The notes beneath the pieces were generated by a model. The model saw only the letters and a list, made by a program, of their open reading frames with translations, had not been told where the DNA came from and did not search any database. The translations under genes and the position numbers were made by a program. Shown here in pieces: positions 5,645-50,204 of a stretch of DNA of 64,000 bases (within the stretch, counting starts at the first letter, position 1; each line of letters opens with the position of its first letter). This stretch comes from Blautia sp. An249. GTDB lineage: Bacteria; Bacillota; Clostridia; Lachnospirales; Lachnospiraceae. The stretch lies in assembly GCF_002159835.1 (NCBI RefSeq), contig NZ_NFJL01000008.1:62001-126000 (forward strand), in the 5' to 3' direction.

Positions 5645-6556
5645 GTGAAAGAAGCAATAAAGAAAGCATTGGAAGAGATCGTAGGTCAGGACGCGGTCCT
5701 TGTGAATGAACCTATGGAAAAACACACCACATTTCGTGTAGGCGGGCCTGCAGATTATTTTGTATGTCCTTCCGATACCGAACAGGTACAGAAAGTTTTG
5801 AAATTCTGCAGAGAAAGTGAAACTCCTTACTTTATCCTGGGAAAGGGAAGCAACCTTCTGGTAAGTGACGAAGGATTCCGGGGCGTTATTCTTCAAATCG
5901 GAAAGAATATGAGCCGGATAGAAAGAGAAGGGAACCGTATCTGGGCTCAGGCAGGAACACCACTGGCGATCTTTGCCAAAGAGGCCGCAGACGGAGGACT
6001 GACAGGCGCGGAATTTGCGGCGGGTATCCCTGGAACCTTAGGCGGCGCAGTGGTTATGAATGCAGGCGCCTATGGGGGAGAGATGAAAGATATACTGAAA
6101 GAGGTCACGGTGGTATCTCAGGAGGGAGAGCTGATACGGATTCCGGCTCAAAAACTGGAAATGGGATACCGTACCAGTATCGTGAAGAAAGCAGGATATA
6201 TTGTCCTGGAAGCCACAGCAGAATTAGAGCCTGGAAAGGAAGAAGAGATTCGTGCCAGGATGAAGGAACTGGCGGACTTAAGGGTACAGAAACAGCCTCT
6301 GGATTATCCCAGCGCAGGCAGCACCTTTAAACGTCCGGAAGGCCACTTCGCAGGAAAGCTGATTATGGATGCAGGACTGAGAGGATACCGGGTGGGAAAC
6401 GCCCAGGTTTCCGAGAAACACTGCGGATTTGTGATTAACCTGGGAGGAGCCACAGCGAAAGACGTCTATCAGCTTATGCAGGACGTTGGCCGGATTGTGA
6501 AAGAGAAATATCAGATTGAACTGGAACCGGAAGTAAAAATGCTGGGGAAATTTTAA
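5645..6556 (+). CDS. murB: UDP-N-acetylenolpyruvoylglucosamine reductase
   Basis: FAD- and NADPH-dependent enzyme of 303 residues for the second committed step to UDP-MurNAc in peptidoglycan synthesis. FAD-binding signatures are GKGSNLLVSDEGFRG and AGIPGTLGGAVVMNAGAYGGE. The catalytic serine lies in YPSAGSTFKRP and the acidic residue in EPEVKMLG near the C terminus. The GTG start at 5645 follows AAGGAGAGG at 5628-5636. It leads the murB-rapZ-whiA-crh cluster. Confidence 0.95.
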   Translation: MKEAIKKALEEIVGQDAVLVNEPMEKHTTFRVGGPADYFVCPSDTEQVQKVLKFCRESETPYFILGKGSNLLVSDEGFRGVILQIGKNMSRIEREGNRIWAQAGTPLAIFAKEAADGGLTGAEFAAGIPGTLGGAVVMNAGAYGGEMKDILKEVTVVSQEGELIRIPAQKLEMGYRTSIVKKAGYIVLEATAELEPGKEEEIRARMKELADLRVQKQPLDYPSAGSTFKRPEGHFAGKLIMDAGLRGYRVGNAQVSEKHCGFVINLGGATAKDVYQLMQDVGRIVKEKYQIELEPEVKMLGKF

Positions 6557-8430: not shown

Positions 8431-8681
8431 TTAAAAGAACGGTAACGATTAATTTATCTACAGGGTTAGAGGCAAGACCTGTTGCACAGCTGGTACAAGT
8501 GGCAAGTCAGTTTACAAGTGAGATTTATGTAGAAATCGGCCGGAAAAAAGTAAATGCGAAAAGCATAATGGGAATGATGACACTGGGACTTGACACCGGA
8601 GAAGAAATCACTCTTTCAGCCAACGGACAGGATGAGCAGGATGCCATGGACAGCATGGAGAAATTTCTGCGGGTACAGTAA
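8427..8681 (+). CDS. Crh-like HPr paralogue with Glu at position 15
   Basis: HPr-fold protein of 84 residues. True HPr carries a phosphorylatable His15 in GLHARPA; here the site reads GLEARPV, so residue 15 is Glu and PTS phosphotransfer should be impossible. Ser46 (KSIMGMM), the target of HPr kinase, is kept. In B. subtilis the gene after whiA is crh, whose product has Gln15 and works only as a CcpA co-regulator through Ser46-P. This protein is probably the equivalent. Translationally coupled to whiA by an ATGA overlap. Confidence 0.88.
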   Translation: MIKRTVTINLSTGLEARPVAQLVQVASQFTSEIYVEIGRKKVNAKSIMGMMTLGLDTGEEITLSANGQDEQDAMDSMEKFLRVQ

Positions 8682-44502: not shown

Positions 44503-44531
44503 TTGCGTTGCGTTTATTTGTAGTGTATAAT
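44503..44531 (+). promoter_or_regulatory. Sigma-A promoter of the DUF5717/Hsp70-like operon
   Basis: TTGCGT at 44503-44508 and perfect TATAAT at 44526-44531 with a 17-base spacer. Transcription would start near 44538, almost on the ATG at 44540, which argues for the downstream GTG at 44573. It lies in the leader of the divergent aminotransferase gene. Confidence 0.75.
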
Positions 44532-44572
44532 TCATTATAATGAACCAAAGGAATATTAGTCAAGGACAATGG

Positions 44573-47500
44573 GTGACGGATTTGAGAAGAAAAATAGAAC
44601 AACTGATAAATGGAAAATTTGAATACGAAATGCCCGAACTGATTCTTTCAGAGAAAGAAATCCGTATCAGGACAGCAGAGGGAAAGAACTGTCAGGGAAT
44701 CCTGTATCTGGGAACAGAGAACAACCGGAATATAAAAGGTTATGTAAGTTCGGATCATCCCAGGATTCTCCCGGGGATTGAGAAGTTTTCGGACAGCGCC
44801 GTTCAGATTCCCTATGGAATCGATGTAAAAGGATTGAAAAGTAAGGAAGAAATTCAGGGAGCGCTGACTTTGCTGACGGATATAGGAGAATTTCAGATCC
44901 CTGTTTTTGTACAGATAGAAGAGAAAAAAATAACCAGCTCAGAAGGGGAAATCCAGGATCTTCAGGGATTTGCAAAACTGGCGCAAACGGACTTCATGGA
45001 AGCCTTCCGTTTATTTAACAGAGAGAGTTTCCAGAAGATTATTCAGAAGGAAAGCCCCAGAATTCAGGCCTTTTACAAAGGGGCTTTGCAGAATCCTGTT
45101 ACATATCAGAATTTAGAAGAATTTTTAATCGGATCCGGGCTGAAAAAGGAAGTAACCATTTCCTTAAAAGAGCAGGAAGCTGTCTTTTACCAGTGCAGGG
45201 AGACCCGACAGGAGACTGTGGAAATACAGAAACACGGATGGGGTCACCTCCGCCTGGAGATTGAAACCCAGGGGGACTTTCTGGAGGTCAATAAGAAGGT
45301 GATCACAGAAGAAGACTTTATCGGAAGTGTTTACCGCCTGGAATATGTGATTCGCAGAAGGAGAAGAGGCAAGGGCAAACATTTCGGGCGGATCTGGATT
45401 AAGAGTCCTTATCAGAAACTGGGCTTTCTGGTGGTGGCCTCTGCGGAAAGCCAGACCCCCGTTGATATGAAACTTTTTGAGAAGAAAAAAAGAGCCGCTC
45501 TGGTAAGGGTGTATCTGGATTACCGGACCGGAAAATTACAAAAAGAAGCCTGGCTGTCCCAGTCGGAAGAAATCCTGCGCCAGCTTCGGCAGGAAGGATG
45601 CGGCTACCCGGAATATCAGATGTATCAGGCCTTTCTGGAGTATCAGAAAAAGAATGTGGAAAAGGCCGGGGAACTGATCCAGGGGTATCAGAAACGGAAT
45701 TTCGGCCGCCAGGATGCAGAGCTGATGGGAATGTATCTGTATCTGGCCCATCTTACAGGCTCCTATCCGGACAGGGAAAAGGGGGTCCGTCGTCTGCGGG
45801 AGCTGTACCGGAAGAAAGAAGAGAGCTGTCTTCTTTTAAATCTGATTCTGAGGATGGATGCATCTCTGTCTCCTTCCAGGGCTGTTTTTATGATGGAGGA
45901 ACAGTTTGAGAAAGGCTGCAGAAGTCCTCTTTTGTATCTGGAAGCCTATGAACGGTTAAAGAAGGATAAAAATCTTCTGCACCGTCTGACGCCCTTCTGG
46001 ACCCAGGTGCTGGCCTTTGCCGGAAAAGAGGGACAGATGGATGAGGAAATGTGCATGCGGATTGGTTATTTATCCGGCTATGCCAAAGAGTTTCGCCAAA
46101 GTCTTTACCGGGTTCTGGAGATGGCCTATGAGGCCTGCCCTTCAGAAGATTTGCTCAATGCCATCTGCAGATATATTATGAAAGGAAATCCCAGAAAGCA
46201 GAAATATTTCCCCTGGTTTGAAAAAGCGGTGGAACAGGGCCTGCGGCTGACCCGCCTCTATGAATACTATATGGAAACTGTGGATACCAGCTATCAGAGA
46301 GAACTGCCTAAAACTCTGCTGCTTTATTTTGCCTTTAACAGCAGTACCCTGGGAGATACCAGAAAAGCGTATATTTACGCCAGTGTGGTGAACCATAAGA
46401 AGAAGCAGCCGCAGATTTTCGAAAGCTATCGGGACGTGATTGGGAAGTTTACCGAAAGGAAACTGGCAGAAGGAGCCATGAATGAGGATTATGCCGTTTT
46501 GTACCAGGAATTCAGCCGGGAACCTCAAAACCTGAAAGAAGCGGAAGAAATCGGTAAGATGCTTTTTACCTACCGTCTTTACTGTGACGATCCTAAGATC
46601 CGAAGCGTAATTGTACGGCATCATCAGCTCGGAAAGGAAGAAGAGTATCCCTGCATCAGAGGCATTGCCTATATCCGGCTTTATACAAAAGACGCGGCCG
46701 TCTTATTTAAAGACGAGCAGCAGCGCAGATATACTTCCACAGTGGATTATAATGTAAAAAAACTGATGGATGAAAATGAAATTCTGCCCCGCTGCCTGCA
46801 GGCAGGATGCCAGAATCCGGGACTTCTGCTGTCCTACTGTGAAAATCATAAAATAGAAGAAAACAATCTGACCGTTTATCAGCAGATGGTGAGATCCAAA
46901 GGATTTACCGGAGAGTATAAAAGGCAGATTCGCAAAGAGATTTTAAATTACTGCCTGAAGGCTGTAAAAGAAGATAAAGAGCTGCACCTGAACCAGATGG
47001 AATTTCGCAGCTTTGCGGCTGTGGATAAAAAGGCTCTGCTGGAAATTATTGTGGAGAAAGGCATGTTTGCCCGGGCTTTTGAGATTCTGGAAGAATTCGG
47101 GACCGAGCAGGTGGATCCGGGTGTTTTGCTTCGTATCTGCAGCTATATGATAGAAGCCCGGGGACAGGAGTATTCAGAAGAGCTGCTGGCTTTGACAGAA
47201 CAGACGTACCGTCTGGGAAAATACAATGTGACGGCGCTGAACTATCTGCTGAGATATTACAGAGGAACCATGGACGAGGCTTTTCGTATATGGAAAAGCG
47301 CCGTGGGATTCCAGCTGGATACCTATGAATTTGAGGAGCGGATTCTCTGCCTTTTAATGTTTACGGAAAATTACCGGGAAGACGGCTGGCAGGTACTGGA
47401 ATCCTATGTGGAAAACCGGGGCAGGGAGAAGGTCATTGCCGGTTACCTGACTTTTGTTTCTTACGGATACTTTATGAAAGGGAAACCTTTCCCGGACTTT

Positions 47501-48112
47501 GTGCAGCAGTGCCTTACTTCAGCGGTACAAAGGGAGTGGAAGCTGGATCGCATCTGTCGTTTCAGCCTTCTTCAGAAGCTGACGGAGCAAAAGGAGAGAA
47601 GCGAGGCAGAGGAAAGGATTATAGAGAGTATTCTGGAAGAGTGCGGAAAGGAGAATCTGTTTTTTGCATTTTTGCAGAGGCTTCCGGCATCCATGCTCAG
47701 CCCTTATCAGTTAGACGATAAAACCTTCGTGGAATACCGGACCGATCCCGGAGCGAAGGTTACCCTCTGTTATGCGCTGGATACCGGACTGGGGAATGCT
47801 CTGGAATATACCCAGGAACCTCTGCACCGGATCTATGAAGGTGTGTTTGCCAAAGGATTTACTTTGTTTTACGGTGAAACCCTGCATTATTATTTTGTAA
47901 TAGAGAAAGATAAGGAAAAGATGAAATTACCCGAACAGAGGATAGCCATGAACCGGGTAGATATGGAAAACGACAGTAAATACCAGCTTCTGAATCAGAT
48001 GCTGGCTGCCTGCCATCTGGAAAAGGAAGAAGAAGTCAAAAAGAAGATGGAGCAGTATCTCAGACAGGAGCGGTATGTAAAAACCATGTTTACAATAGAA
48101 AAGGAAGCATAA
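44573..48112 (+). CDS. Giant DUF5717-like solenoid protein
   Basis: About 1179 residues (1190 if ATG 44540 is used); GTG 44573 is preferred because AAGGA lies at 44562-44566 and the mapped promoter leaves no leader for 44540. The N-terminal third is beta-rich (two or more immunoglobulin-like stretches up to about 310). The centre is a long alpha-helical repeat array resembling TPR/HEAT solenoids. The last 110 residues are again beta-rich. No signal peptide or membrane helix is seen. I recognise the DUF5717 type, known mainly from Lachnospiraceae, with no known function. It lies one base from an Hsp70-like gene. Confidence 0.82.
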   Translation: MTDLRRKIEQLINGKFEYEMPELILSEKEIRIRTAEGKNCQGILYLGTENNRNIKGYVSSDHPRILPGIEKFSDSAVQIPYGIDVKGLKSKEEIQGALTLLTDIGEFQIPVFVQIEEKKITSSEGEIQDLQGFAKLAQTDFMEAFRLFNRESFQKIIQKESPRIQAFYKGALQNPVTYQNLEEFLIGSGLKKEVTISLKEQEAVFYQCRETRQETVEIQKHGWGHLRLEIETQGDFLEVNKKVITEEDFIGSVYRLEYVIRRRRRGKGKHFGRIWIKSPYQKLGFLVVASAESQTPVDMKLFEKKKRAALVRVYLDYRTGKLQKEAWLSQSEEILRQLRQEGCGYPEYQMYQAFLEYQKKNVEKAGELIQGYQKRNFGRQDAELMGMYLYLAHLTGSYPDREKGVRRLRELYRKKEESCLLLNLILRMDASLSPSRAVFMMEEQFEKGCRSPLLYLEAYERLKKDKNLLHRLTPFWTQVLAFAGKEGQMDEEMCMRIGYLSGYAKEFRQSLYRVLEMAYEACPSEDLLNAICRYIMKGNPRKQKYFPWFEKAVEQGLRLTRLYEYYMETVDTSYQRELPKTLLLYFAFNSSTLGDTRKAYIYASVVNHKKKQPQIFESYRDVIGKFTERKLAEGAMNEDYAVLYQEFSREPQNLKEAEEIGKMLFTYRLYCDDPKIRSVIVRHHQLGKEEEYPCIRGIAYIRLYTKDAAVLFKDEQQRRYTSTVDYNVKKLMDENEILPRCLQAGCQNPGLLLSYCENHKIEENNLTVYQQMVRSKGFTGEYKRQIRKEILNYCLKAVKEDKELHLNQMEFRSFAAVDKKALLEIIVEKGMFARAFEILEEFGTEQVDPGVLLRICSYMIEARGQEYSEELLALTEQTYRLGKYNVTALNYLLRYYRGTMDEAFRIWKSAVGFQLDTYEFEERILCLLMFTENYREDGWQVLESYVENRGREKVIAGYLTFVSYGYFMKGKPFPDFVQQCLTSAVQREWKLDRICRFSLLQKLTEQKERSEAEERIIESILEECGKENLFFAFLQRLPASMLSPYQLDDKTFVEYRTDPGAKVTLCYALDTGLGNALEYTQEPLHRIYEGVFAKGFTLFYGETLHYYFVIEKDKEKMKLPEQRIAMNRVDMENDSKYQLLNQMLAACHLEKEEEVKKKMEQYLRQERYVKTMFTIEKEA

Positions 48113-48113
48113 T

Positions 48114-49361
48114 ATGAACGAAATTAGAGAACTTCTGGTAGGAATTGATCTGGGGAAAGAATTTTCCCAGATCTGCTACTATGACAGAAAAGCCGACGAA
48201 CCAATGTCCATTTCTATGAAAGCCGGAACCAGCCATTACGAGGCGCCGTCCTGCCTTTGCAGGAAAGCGGAAAACGGGGAATGGAACGTGGGAATTGAAG
48301 CGGAATACTTCGCCAGAGAAAGAGGCGGTTTTCTGGTAAAGGATCTCCTTGCTGTAGGAAACCGGAAAGAAAAGATTCCGGTGGGGGAGGAATCCTTTGC
48401 CCCGGAAGAGCTGCTGGCGGAATTCTTAAGAGGGATGCTGAAATTTCTGGGCATTGCGGAAATTACAAAAAATATGAAATGTCTGGTCATCACAGTAGAG
48501 GAACTGACCTCGCAGATTGTGAAGAATCTCCAGAGCGCTTTAAAAAGTCTGGGATTCAGGCATTCCCAGACCCTTTTAATGGATTATGGAGAAAGTTTTT
48601 ATTATTATGCTCTGGGGCAGAAGAAAGAAACCTGGAACAGAAATGTGGGCTGGTATGCATTTGCAGGAAATCAGGTGAAATTCAGAAAGCTTACCATGAA
48701 TGTCAGCACAAAACCTGTTTTAGTGGAGCTGAAGCCTCCGGTGGAAATCTTTCTGGAGGAAGAAGAAGGGAAACGGGACGATCAGTACTGCGAATTTATT
48801 AATGAAACCATAGGGAACGACTTGTATTCCAGTATTCTTCTGACCGGAGAGGGCTTTGACCAGAAATGGGCAGTGAAATCCACGGGGGCCCTGTGCCGGC
48901 AGAAGCGGAAAGTGTTCTGGGGAAATAATTTATTTGCCAAGGGAGCCTGCTACGGAGCCAAGGAAAAGCTGGAAAATAAAAAATTAAAAGGTTATCTCTA
49001 TCTCAGCAACGCCCTGGTCCAGACCAATATCGGCATGGAGATGATGATTATGGGCTCCCCGGCCTATTATCCGCTGATTGAAGCAGGAAATAACTGGTAT
49101 GAATGCAAGGCGGAGTGCGAATTTTTGCTGGATGAGAAAAGAGAACTGGTATTCCTTGTAAGCCGTATGGGGGAAAAGGGGAAGAAAAAAGTGGCAATGT
49201 CTCTTCCCGGACTGCCCGTCCGCCCTGCCAAGGCTACGAGAATCCGGTTAAAACTGGAATATGTATCCCGGGAAGAGTGCATCATTCAGGCAGAAGATCT
49301 GGGATTTGGGGAGATGTTTTTGTCCGGCCGGAAAGTCTGGACAGAGACAATGAGATGGTAA
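48114..49361 (+). CDS. Hsp70/actin-fold protein with degenerate phosphate-2 motif (DUF5716-like)
   Basis: Protein of 415 residues. The N terminus GIDLGKEFSQICYYD (10-24) matches the Hsp70 phosphate-1 loop; LVITVEELTSQIVKNLQSALKSLG followed by DYGESFYYYAL matches Hsp70 subdomain IA, and SSILLTGEGFDQKW the adenosine motif. The DLGGGT phosphate-2 loop is replaced by WYAFAGNQVKF, so ATP hydrolysis may be weak or lost. No substrate-binding domain; the end is a short beta-rich region with EDLGFGEMF. Operon with the giant solenoid and a TPR protein. Confidence 0.78.
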   Translation: MNEIRELLVGIDLGKEFSQICYYDRKADEPMSISMKAGTSHYEAPSCLCRKAENGEWNVGIEAEYFARERGGFLVKDLLAVGNRKEKIPVGEESFAPEELLAEFLRGMLKFLGIAEITKNMKCLVITVEELTSQIVKNLQSALKSLGFRHSQTLLMDYGESFYYYALGQKKETWNRNVGWYAFAGNQVKFRKLTMNVSTKPVLVELKPPVEIFLEEEEGKRDDQYCEFINETIGNDLYSSILLTGEGFDQKWAVKSTGALCRQKRKVFWGNNLFAKGACYGAKEKLENKKLKGYLYLSNALVQTNIGMEMMIMGSPAYYPLIEAGNNWYECKAECEFLLDEKRELVFLVSRMGEKGKKKVAMSLPGLPVRPAKATRIRLKLEYVSREECIIQAEDLGFGEMFLSGRKVWTETMRW

Positions 49362-49374
49362 GGAGGCACAAAAG

Positions 49375-50163
49375 ATGAGCGGATATATATTATGTCAGAG
49401 AGAACAGGCGAGATCGCCGTATTTTATTGAGGCCATCCATACAAATATCTATTCTATAGAAGAATTATGTTACTATCTGTATCACAACCTGGAGCTGGCA
49501 GATGAAACCCTGTTTAATGAAGGACTGTGCACCTGGATTCAGGAGGAACTGGGAATGGGAGAGCTGGCCGCCCGGCTGAGGACGCGTCTGGGAAAAGGAC
49601 AGGCTCTGGAAGAGAAGATTTATCCGGTCTTTAAGTCCATTAATTATTTATCCTATGACGAGCTGAAAAAGCTGAACGTCCATCTGAAAAAGCTGGAACA
49701 GGAGACCTGGGAAATGCGCTGCAAGATGCGCGGAGACTGTTTCATGGAAAACAGAATGTACGGAAATGCCATTCACGCCTACCAGAAGGTTCTGGAGAAG
49801 ATGGAAGAAAAGGAAGAACCAAAGGACGCAGGCAAAAGGGGACGGGTATGGAACAATCTGGGCTGTGCCTACAGCTACCTGTTTCAGAAAGAAAAGGCGG
49901 CAGAGTGTTTCGGAAAAGCCTATGAATGTCTGAAAGATAAGAAATCTCTGCAGACGTATCTCTGCGCCCTTTACTGGAGCCTTCCCCGGGAAGAGTTTGA
50001 AAAACGGCAGCAGGAGCTGAGGGCGGAGGAAGAGCTGGGAAAAGAAGTCCTGGAAAAGATGAAAGCCATTGCCGGGCAGCCGGCGCAGAAAGTGGAAATC
50101 GGAGAGATAAACGGTCTGTTGGAAGAGATGATTCGGGAATATCATCGAAATACCGGATTTTGA
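49375..50163 (+). CDS. TPR-containing protein of the Hsp70-like operon
   Basis: Soluble, largely helical protein of 262 residues. TPR-like repeats are visible at about 117-145 (MRGDCFMENRMYGNAIHAYQKVLEK) and 160-190 (VWNNLGCAYSYLFQKEKAAECFGKAYE). The N-terminal 100 residues include SPYFIEAIHTNIYSIEELCYYLYHN, which I do not recognise by name. RBS AAGGAGG, 13 bases after the Hsp70-like gene. Likely a co-chaperone-like partner of that protein; inference from context. Confidence 0.75.
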   Translation: MSGYILCQREQARSPYFIEAIHTNIYSIEELCYYLYHNLELADETLFNEGLCTWIQEELGMGELAARLRTRLGKGQALEEKIYPVFKSINYLSYDELKKLNVHLKKLEQETWEMRCKMRGDCFMENRMYGNAIHAYQKVLEKMEEKEEPKDAGKRGRVWNNLGCAYSYLFQKEKAAECFGKAYECLKDKKSLQTYLCALYWSLPREEFEKRQQELRAEEELGKEVLEKMKAIAGQPAQKVEIGEINGLLEEMIREYHRNTGF

Positions 50164-50175
50164 GAAGGAAGAAAC

Positions 50176-50204
50176 TTGACAGCAGGGTTCTGCTATGGTA
50201 GTAT
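50176..50204 (+). promoter_or_regulatory. Sigma-A promoter of the amino acid ABC transporter
   Basis: Perfect TTGACA at 50176-50181 and TAGTAT at 50199-50204, 17-base spacer, leaving a leader of about 65 nt. Confidence 0.82.

Follow-up and report, generated by a model that had tools for sequence, protein, structure and literature searches.

A 64,000-nt stretch of contig NZ_NFJL01000008.1 from Blautia sp. An249 (the window, to whose positions all coordinates refer) carries three plus-strand genes, P1, P2 and P3, encoding a very large DUF5717 protein, a degenerate relative of Hsp70 and a tetratricopeptide repeat (TPR) protein. This trio is real, conserved and more informative than an earlier reading made from the letters alone (the sequence-only reading) had held, and our best reading is that it represents a pseudo-Hsp70 scaffold, the remainder of what was once a multi-Hsp70 operon. 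It is somewhat probable that the three proteins form a non-cycling, Ssz1-like complex that holds polypeptide, where both the complex and its function are what we infer. The operon is near-universal and fast-evolving in a major gut family, and no role or description of it was found in the open-licence papers searched, in which a lone mention of DUF5716 (unrelated, by the title of the paper) turned up. The tie to a larger Hsp70 operon, and the retention of a degenerate Hsp70 where the catalytic ones are gone from the operon, make its role testable; the joint absence of a GrpE-domain gene and of the Hsp70 lobe-II stretch around subdomain IIB offers a natural experiment in the conversion of an Hsp70 into a pseudo-enzyme that serves as a scaffold.

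A conserved operon of the Lachnospiraceae

The three open reading frames (ORFs) lie at 44573-48112, 48114-49361 and 49375-50163, with the gaps of 1 and 13 bases that the sequence-only reading had described. The products of the first two match PF18980 (DUF5716_C), PF18984 (DUF5717_N) and PF18983 (DUF5717) far above the curated cut-offs (337.9, 818.6 and 307.9 bits). These Pfam entries are names without function, to which the Hsp70 kinship and the larger operon of sister families are added here. The trio has no match in NCBIfam.

PF18984 was matched in 147 of 150 Lachnospiraceae genomes and PF18980 in 145; restricting the count to genomes with completeness of 90% or more and contamination of 5% or less gives 124/126 for P1 and 123/126 for P2. 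P2 was matched once per genome in 143 of the 145. Frequent separation of the genes, which would speak against the single conserved unit proposed earlier, was not found: P2 lies behind P1 on the same strand and within 4 kb in 138 of the 142 genomes with both among the matches listed (144 genomes with a listed P1 row, 147 having a match), and on a different contig in the other four. Separate P1-P2-P3 genes occur in 34 of 40 genus-level regions, chosen by hand from the P1 matches in the family, and in another five P2 and P3 are a single fused ORF of 684-723 aa. A second, named-genome collection gave all three genes in 79 of 80 loci, these being the best 80 of at least 567 tblastn matches to the window's P2, with record titles that include Blautia, Eisenbergiella, Fusicatenibacter and many Lachnospiraceae. 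Recurrence in 39/40 regions and 79/80 loci is more than chance. The proteins themselves diverge fast: across the family they are 20-46% identical to their counterparts in the window.

Beyond the family, PF18984 was found in 62 of 116 sampled genomes of the order Lachnospirales, 11 of the 62 being Lachnospiraceae. Among 291 genomes of the class it matched 10 Lachnospiraceae and gave one weak match, and PF18983 among 299 genomes of the phylum matched 4 Lachnospiraceae and gave one weak match. A profile of the sister-family solenoid, searched in 283 class genomes, found 10 Lachnospiraceae and 8 weak short matches outside the order (G298, G172, G293, G194 and four others; E 1e-9 to 1e-3), seven of which cover about the same part of the profile (459-649); these may be remote relatives or generic repeats.

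Some smaller observations belong with the distribution. Two Lachnospiraceae genomes, G029 and G091 (93 and 98% complete), are without both P1 and P2. In locus L080 an intact P2-P3 pair has, upstream of position 8436, other ORFs in the place of P1, one of which (356 aa) looks integrase-like by eye. A viral origin of the trio was considered and rejected, as the 79 candidate stretches drawn from viral contigs contained no relative, and PHROGs gave weak matches only (best 0.0016, for P3). A link with sporulation was likewise set aside: SpoIVA occurs in 47/62 genomes with DUF5717 vs 43/54 without, and the trio is therefore not associated with this marker.

P2 is a pseudo-Hsp70

P2 (48114-49361, plus strand, 415 aa; DUF5716_C, E 5.5e-101) combines a degenerate nucleotide-binding domain (NBD) with the beta part of the substrate-binding domain (SBD-beta). 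Its best structural matches are Hsp70s including SBD-beta, with yeast Ssz1 among them, which bears out the Hsp70 kinship seen in the sequence-only reading. The P2 model aligns with DnaK residues 2-503, SBD-beta included, full-length DnaK alignments reach P2 residue 415, and structure comparison finds the Hsp70 trait of an actin-like NBD joined to SBD-beta. The SBD-beta-like domain spans 48993-49358 (+; residues ~294-415, the DnaK linker mapping to 294) and carries a conserved D-x-G-F-G motif, of which D395, G397 and G399 are invariant in alignment A1. The earlier statement that P2 has no substrate-binding domain was thus mistaken, as only the SBD-alpha lid is absent: the tail of the genome's own DnaK, residues 496-623, has no counterpart in P2. 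The Pfam HSP70 profile, PF00012, does not match P2 at E 1 and does match a DUF5716 orthologue from a sister family (1.4e-17); across the window's genome the same profile gives one full-length match (DnaK) and three partial ones, none at P2. Against PDB sequences, P2 finds three DnaK chains at E 0.013-0.1.

The catalytic apparatus has been lost. P2 retains neither of the two phosphate loops nor the K70 site; the catalytic set DxGTT, DxGGGT and K70 was looked for over 103 P2 rows (102 distinct) and 19 sister DUF5716 rows and found lacking. A deletion in lobe II maps to 48696-48701 (+), after residue ~195; what is missing from P2 there corresponds to residues 183-246 of the DnaK encoded in the same genome, a stretch around subdomain IIB. 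The distance from the phosphate-2 to the adenosine motif is 59 aa (48-67) in P2, vs 132 in DnaK and 133 (121-141) in the sister orthologues. It is at lobe II, around subdomain IIB, that GrpE grips DnaK. With these losses and the lobe-II deletion, P2, on its sequence, cannot be a normal ATP-cycling Hsp70. The idea that the trio is an active ATP-cycling Hsp70 machine, which was the strong form of the sequence-only reading, is very unlikely: the Hsp70 fold of P2 with its SBD-beta would suit it, as would the active-looking Hsp70s and GrpE-domain proteins of sister operons described below, but the phosphate loops, K70, the IIB-region stretch of lobe II and the lid are all missing from P2, and no J-domain or GrpE family match was found in the trio. 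P2 itself was ruled out as an active Hsp70 on its motifs.

The nearest working analogue of P2 is Ssz1 of the yeast ribosome-associated complex (RAC). Parts of the Ssz1 literature (PMC7083937) describe a protein that has no lid, keeps SBD-beta, and binds ATP without hydrolysing it. P2 shares the lidless build and SBD-beta, and no canonical ATP cycle is expected of it; the kinship demonstrated is that of the Hsp70 fold only. ATP binding and the J-protein partner Zuo1 are features of Ssz1, and no such partner was seen for P2 among the operon proteins scanned. Taking the analogy further, the trio could regulate or feed the cell's DnaK, perhaps at the ribosome as Ssz1 does in RAC, with P2 presenting or receiving nascent chains. 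We consider this unlikely. The lidless, SBD-beta-retaining and non-hydrolysing design of Ssz1 (PMC7083937), which P2 would share, the place of Ssz1 among the structural matches, and the single ordinary DnaK in the window's genome all favour it, but scanning the trio and proteins of the sister operon gave no J-domain Pfam match (a search of operon proteins only), which leaves it without a Zuo1-like partner there, and no ribosome-binding feature was identified, no test having been aimed at one.

A scaffold-like P1 and a TPR partner

P1 (44582-48112, plus strand; DUF5717_N E 7.5e-246, DUF5717 E 9e-92) has an AlphaFold2 (AF2) model with a predicted local distance difference score (pLDDT) of 88.6 and a predicted template modelling score (pTM) of 0.66. 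In GTG numbering, counted from 44573, the model contains a first PapD/ASH-like beta-sandwich at residues 22-117 (44636-44923, +), a second at residues 193-295 (45149-45457, +; VIA-align rows, with strands at 195-290 in the model), a long alpha-solenoid at residues 299-1045 (45467-47707, +; DSSP of the model) with a beta insertion at ~666-730, and a C-terminal beta domain at residues 1050-1125 (47720-47947, +) inside Pfam DUF5717. P1 has no match among PDB sequences at E 1, and its solenoid gives weak Foldseek matches to Ctr9, Ski3, Naa15 and similar scaffolds. The modelled solenoid makes the earlier suggestion of P1 as a scaffold a plausible one, and the predicted length of ~1179 residues holds for a DUF5717 solenoid protein apart from the start codon, which is more likely TTG 44582 (1176 aa).

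P3 (49375-50163, plus strand, 262 aa) is a TPR protein, as was recognized earlier (TPR_2, E 1.7e-9), with an N-terminal segment, IYSIEELCYY, that is conserved in an alignment of 33; its orthologues in sister families are longer (382-413 aa). Its weaker matches include the TPRs of CHIP and STI1. The pairing of a TPR protein with an Hsp70-like neighbour is held in common with the HOP/CHIP co-chaperones of Hsp70, but the TPR similarity is generic and P2 has no EEVD tail. EEVD is the Hsp70 tail motif in eukaryotic TPR pairing, and none of 33 aligned P2 proteins ends in it. A eukaryote-style TPR-EEVD pairing therefore has no basis here. At L116:10121-11953 and L055:11758-12900, P3 carries a long acidic low-complexity insert.

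A larger Hsp70 operon in sister families

In sister families of the order the operon is much larger, and runs P1N, P1C, Hsp70, GrpE-domain protein, P2 orthologue, Hsp70, Hsp70/VWA and P3 orthologue. We extended 20 sister regions, chosen from the genomes of 36 regions that include two from outside the order. Behind P1C comes Hsp70a (~558 aa) and then a GrpE-like protein (279-645 aa; matched in all 20); the DUF5716 orthologue (19/20) and Hsp70b (~546 aa) are next, followed by Hsp70c (~690-735 aa), which is whole in 18 regions and broken up in one, and last by the P3 orthologue, whole in 16 and broken up in one (L201 has both Hsp70c and P3 in pieces). Within the set, L206 ends after Hsp70b, P3 was unmatched in L209 and L212, and DUF5716 was unmatched in L209. 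Pfam assigns the three Hsp70s with E-values of 5.1e-76 (Hsp70a), 2.2e-60 (Hsp70b) and 4.5e-96 (Hsp70c, with a VWA domain; one protein scanned), their active-site motifs look intact, and all four GrpE-like proteins scanned match GrpE (1.2e-10 to 3e-13). The catalytic Hsp70s and the GrpE gene are missing from the Lachnospiraceae operon. The link to chaperones made in the sequence-only reading is much strengthened by these three Hsp70s and the GrpE-domain protein. Matches of an Hsp70a profile in 149 phylum genomes reach at most 240 bits among those listed, a search run without a genuine Hsp70a as positive control, and are read as ordinary DnaK.

In the P1 tree, locus L157 adjoins the Lachnospiraceae with support of 100/100 (unrooted), and the same operon (L157/L201) retains Hsp70a, GrpE, DUF5716 and Hsp70b, with Hsp70c and P3 in pieces. 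The simplest history would be that the catalytic parts were lost from the operon on the way to the Lachnospiraceae; as the tree is unrooted, this loss is inference.

The nearest published gene-cluster theme we found, in sections of a study of GAP1-N2 GTPase-centric systems (PMC7159879), has as its second theme an HSP70, GrpE, a second HSP70 lacking the peptide-binding domain, and TPR or DnaJ fusions of FNIII proteins, with vWA in other themes. HSP70, GrpE, an HSP70 variant and TPR are thus held in common with the sister operon in what those sections describe, but no GAP1-like or GTPase-like Pfam match was found among the scanned operon proteins (whether Pfam has a GAP1-N2 model was unchecked), and the operon is confined to one order in our samples. 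That the trio is a conflict (defence) system akin to these is highly improbable. The parallel part list in those sections of PMC7159879 and the fast divergence within the family would agree with such a role, as would PADLOC candidate models that match parts of sister Hsp70b (PDC-M61B, 8.7e-11), Hsp70c (4.4e-7) and the TPR protein (4e-6), although we read these as generic Hsp70/TPR similarity. The lack of a GTPase or GAP1-like Pfam match in the operon proteins scanned, the near-universal occurrence with a single P2 match in most genomes, the lack of relatives in the viral-contig stretches and the absence of any PADLOC match for the trio at E 1 argue the other way.

As an observation apart, the ORFs of 557, 394 and 521 aa downstream in locus L193, below position 6000, look CRISPR-like by eye.

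A proposed polypeptide-holding complex

The Ssz1-like scaffold that we favour would work as the reduced, non-catalytic core of the order's dedicated Hsp70 machine. P1, with its two PapD/ASH-like sandwiches, long solenoid and C-terminal beta domain, would be the scaffold; P2, which retains the NBD fold and SBD-beta while lacking the lid, an intact ATPase site and a stretch around the lobe gripped by GrpE in DnaK, would be the pseudo-Hsp70; and P3 would be a TPR adaptor tied to P2, the three together forming a stable cytosolic complex. As described for yeast Ssz1, the SBD-beta of P2 may keep hold of a peptide at low affinity and independently of any ATP cycle, the peptide belonging to a client or else to P1 or P3; where active refolding is needed the complex might pass clients to the ordinary DnaK.

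A fourth gene may tether this complex in about four of ten Lachnospiraceae genomes. It encodes ~400 aa with, by eye, a coiled coil and two apparent membrane helices (e.g. L041:12926-14119), and matches strongly in 64 of the 150 Lachnospiraceae genomes. In 63 of these its start lies 730-1247 bases beyond the P2 match, with the two on one strand, and behind P3 where both are seen. It is also matched in 6 of the 20 sister loci, has no match in the window's genome, and in Pfam finds sub-threshold DUF6594 only. These apparent membrane helices, the actin/Hsp70 superfamily fold of P2, and the PapD/ASH-like domains of P1, a type found in ciliary and centrosomal proteins, could be taken for a cytoskeletal or envelope structure in which P2 forms actin-like filaments and P1 links them to the membrane. 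We regard this as extremely unlikely, as the best structural matches of P2 are Hsp70s with SBD-beta and its nucleotide site is degenerate, and the cytoskeletal role offered in the sequence-only reading gained no positive support.

Several points weigh against the polypeptide-holding scaffold and the history proposed for it. The phosphate-1 Asp is retained in 81% of P2 rows, so that nucleotide binding is conceivable, and the adenosine motif retains an invariant G and F. Peptide binding by SBD-beta is suggested by the fold alone, the association of P1, P2 and P3 is a proposal, a hand-over to DnaK is speculative, and no J-domain match was seen in the operon proteins scanned. At least one genome, G039, is truly split: P2, P3 and the fourth gene lie together, whereas P1 sits well inside a different contig. 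Several sister loci are without the whole operon: P1N and P1C lie on two contigs with no matched Hsp70 beside them in L166/L192 (G520), P1N is apart from P1C in L179/L180 (G483), no Hsp70s follow P1C in L172 (G528), a DUF5716 relative lies directly behind P1C in L191 (G451), and L187 (G536) has a weak P1N only, while in L170, L171 and L190 P1C is followed by an Hsp70 and then by genes that were only partly matched, and L161, L162, L176 and L177 have a partial operon near a contig or region end. The reduced or scattered loci (L191, L172, L166/L192 and L179/L180) hint at independent reductions. That the change was a loss and not a gain is argued from parsimony and a tree without a root.

In a wider account, which we offer tentatively, an undescribed multi-Hsp70 machine may have arisen in one order, with three intact-motif Hsp70s (one with VWA), a GrpE-domain protein, a pseudo-Hsp70, a TPR protein and a PapD/ASH-solenoid scaffold; one dominant family may then have dropped the ATPases and the exchange-factor gene and kept the pseudo-Hsp70 and the scaffold, as an ATP-independent complex that handles polypeptides and is close to obligatory.

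Control signals and neighbouring genes

The start of P1 and the region upstream of it were compared in 19 aligned rows (the window and 18 chosen related loci). TTG 44582 (1176 aa) is more likely the start than GTG 44573 (1179 aa) because it is the conserved start in this alignment, and GGGTGA at 44571-44576 (+), which overlaps the GTG, is by the same alignment the probable ribosome-binding site. A likely operon promoter, TTGCGT-17 bases-TATAAT, lies at 44503-44531 (+). Its -10 element is perfect, and TGTATAAT is kept there in 14 of the 19 rows (13 of those 14 with TTGC upstream), which makes a promoter at this place likely; a consensus scan listed no plus-strand site at 44503-44531 because the -35 element fits just 3/6. 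The single strong promoter claimed previously thus persists as a promoter, its strength not being shown. The gene downstream of P3 has its own promoter-like site at 50176-50204 in the same scan.

Upstream of P1 lies a divergent class I/II aminotransferase gene (PF00155; 43388-44485, minus strand). The family occurs in 18 of 41 neighbourhoods; 17 of these have it divergent, and in 16 it is no more than 350 bases from P1. ORFs resembling the gene are also divergent in sister loci L160 and L175. Since this arrangement recurs, the aminotransferase gene and P1 may have a common control region.

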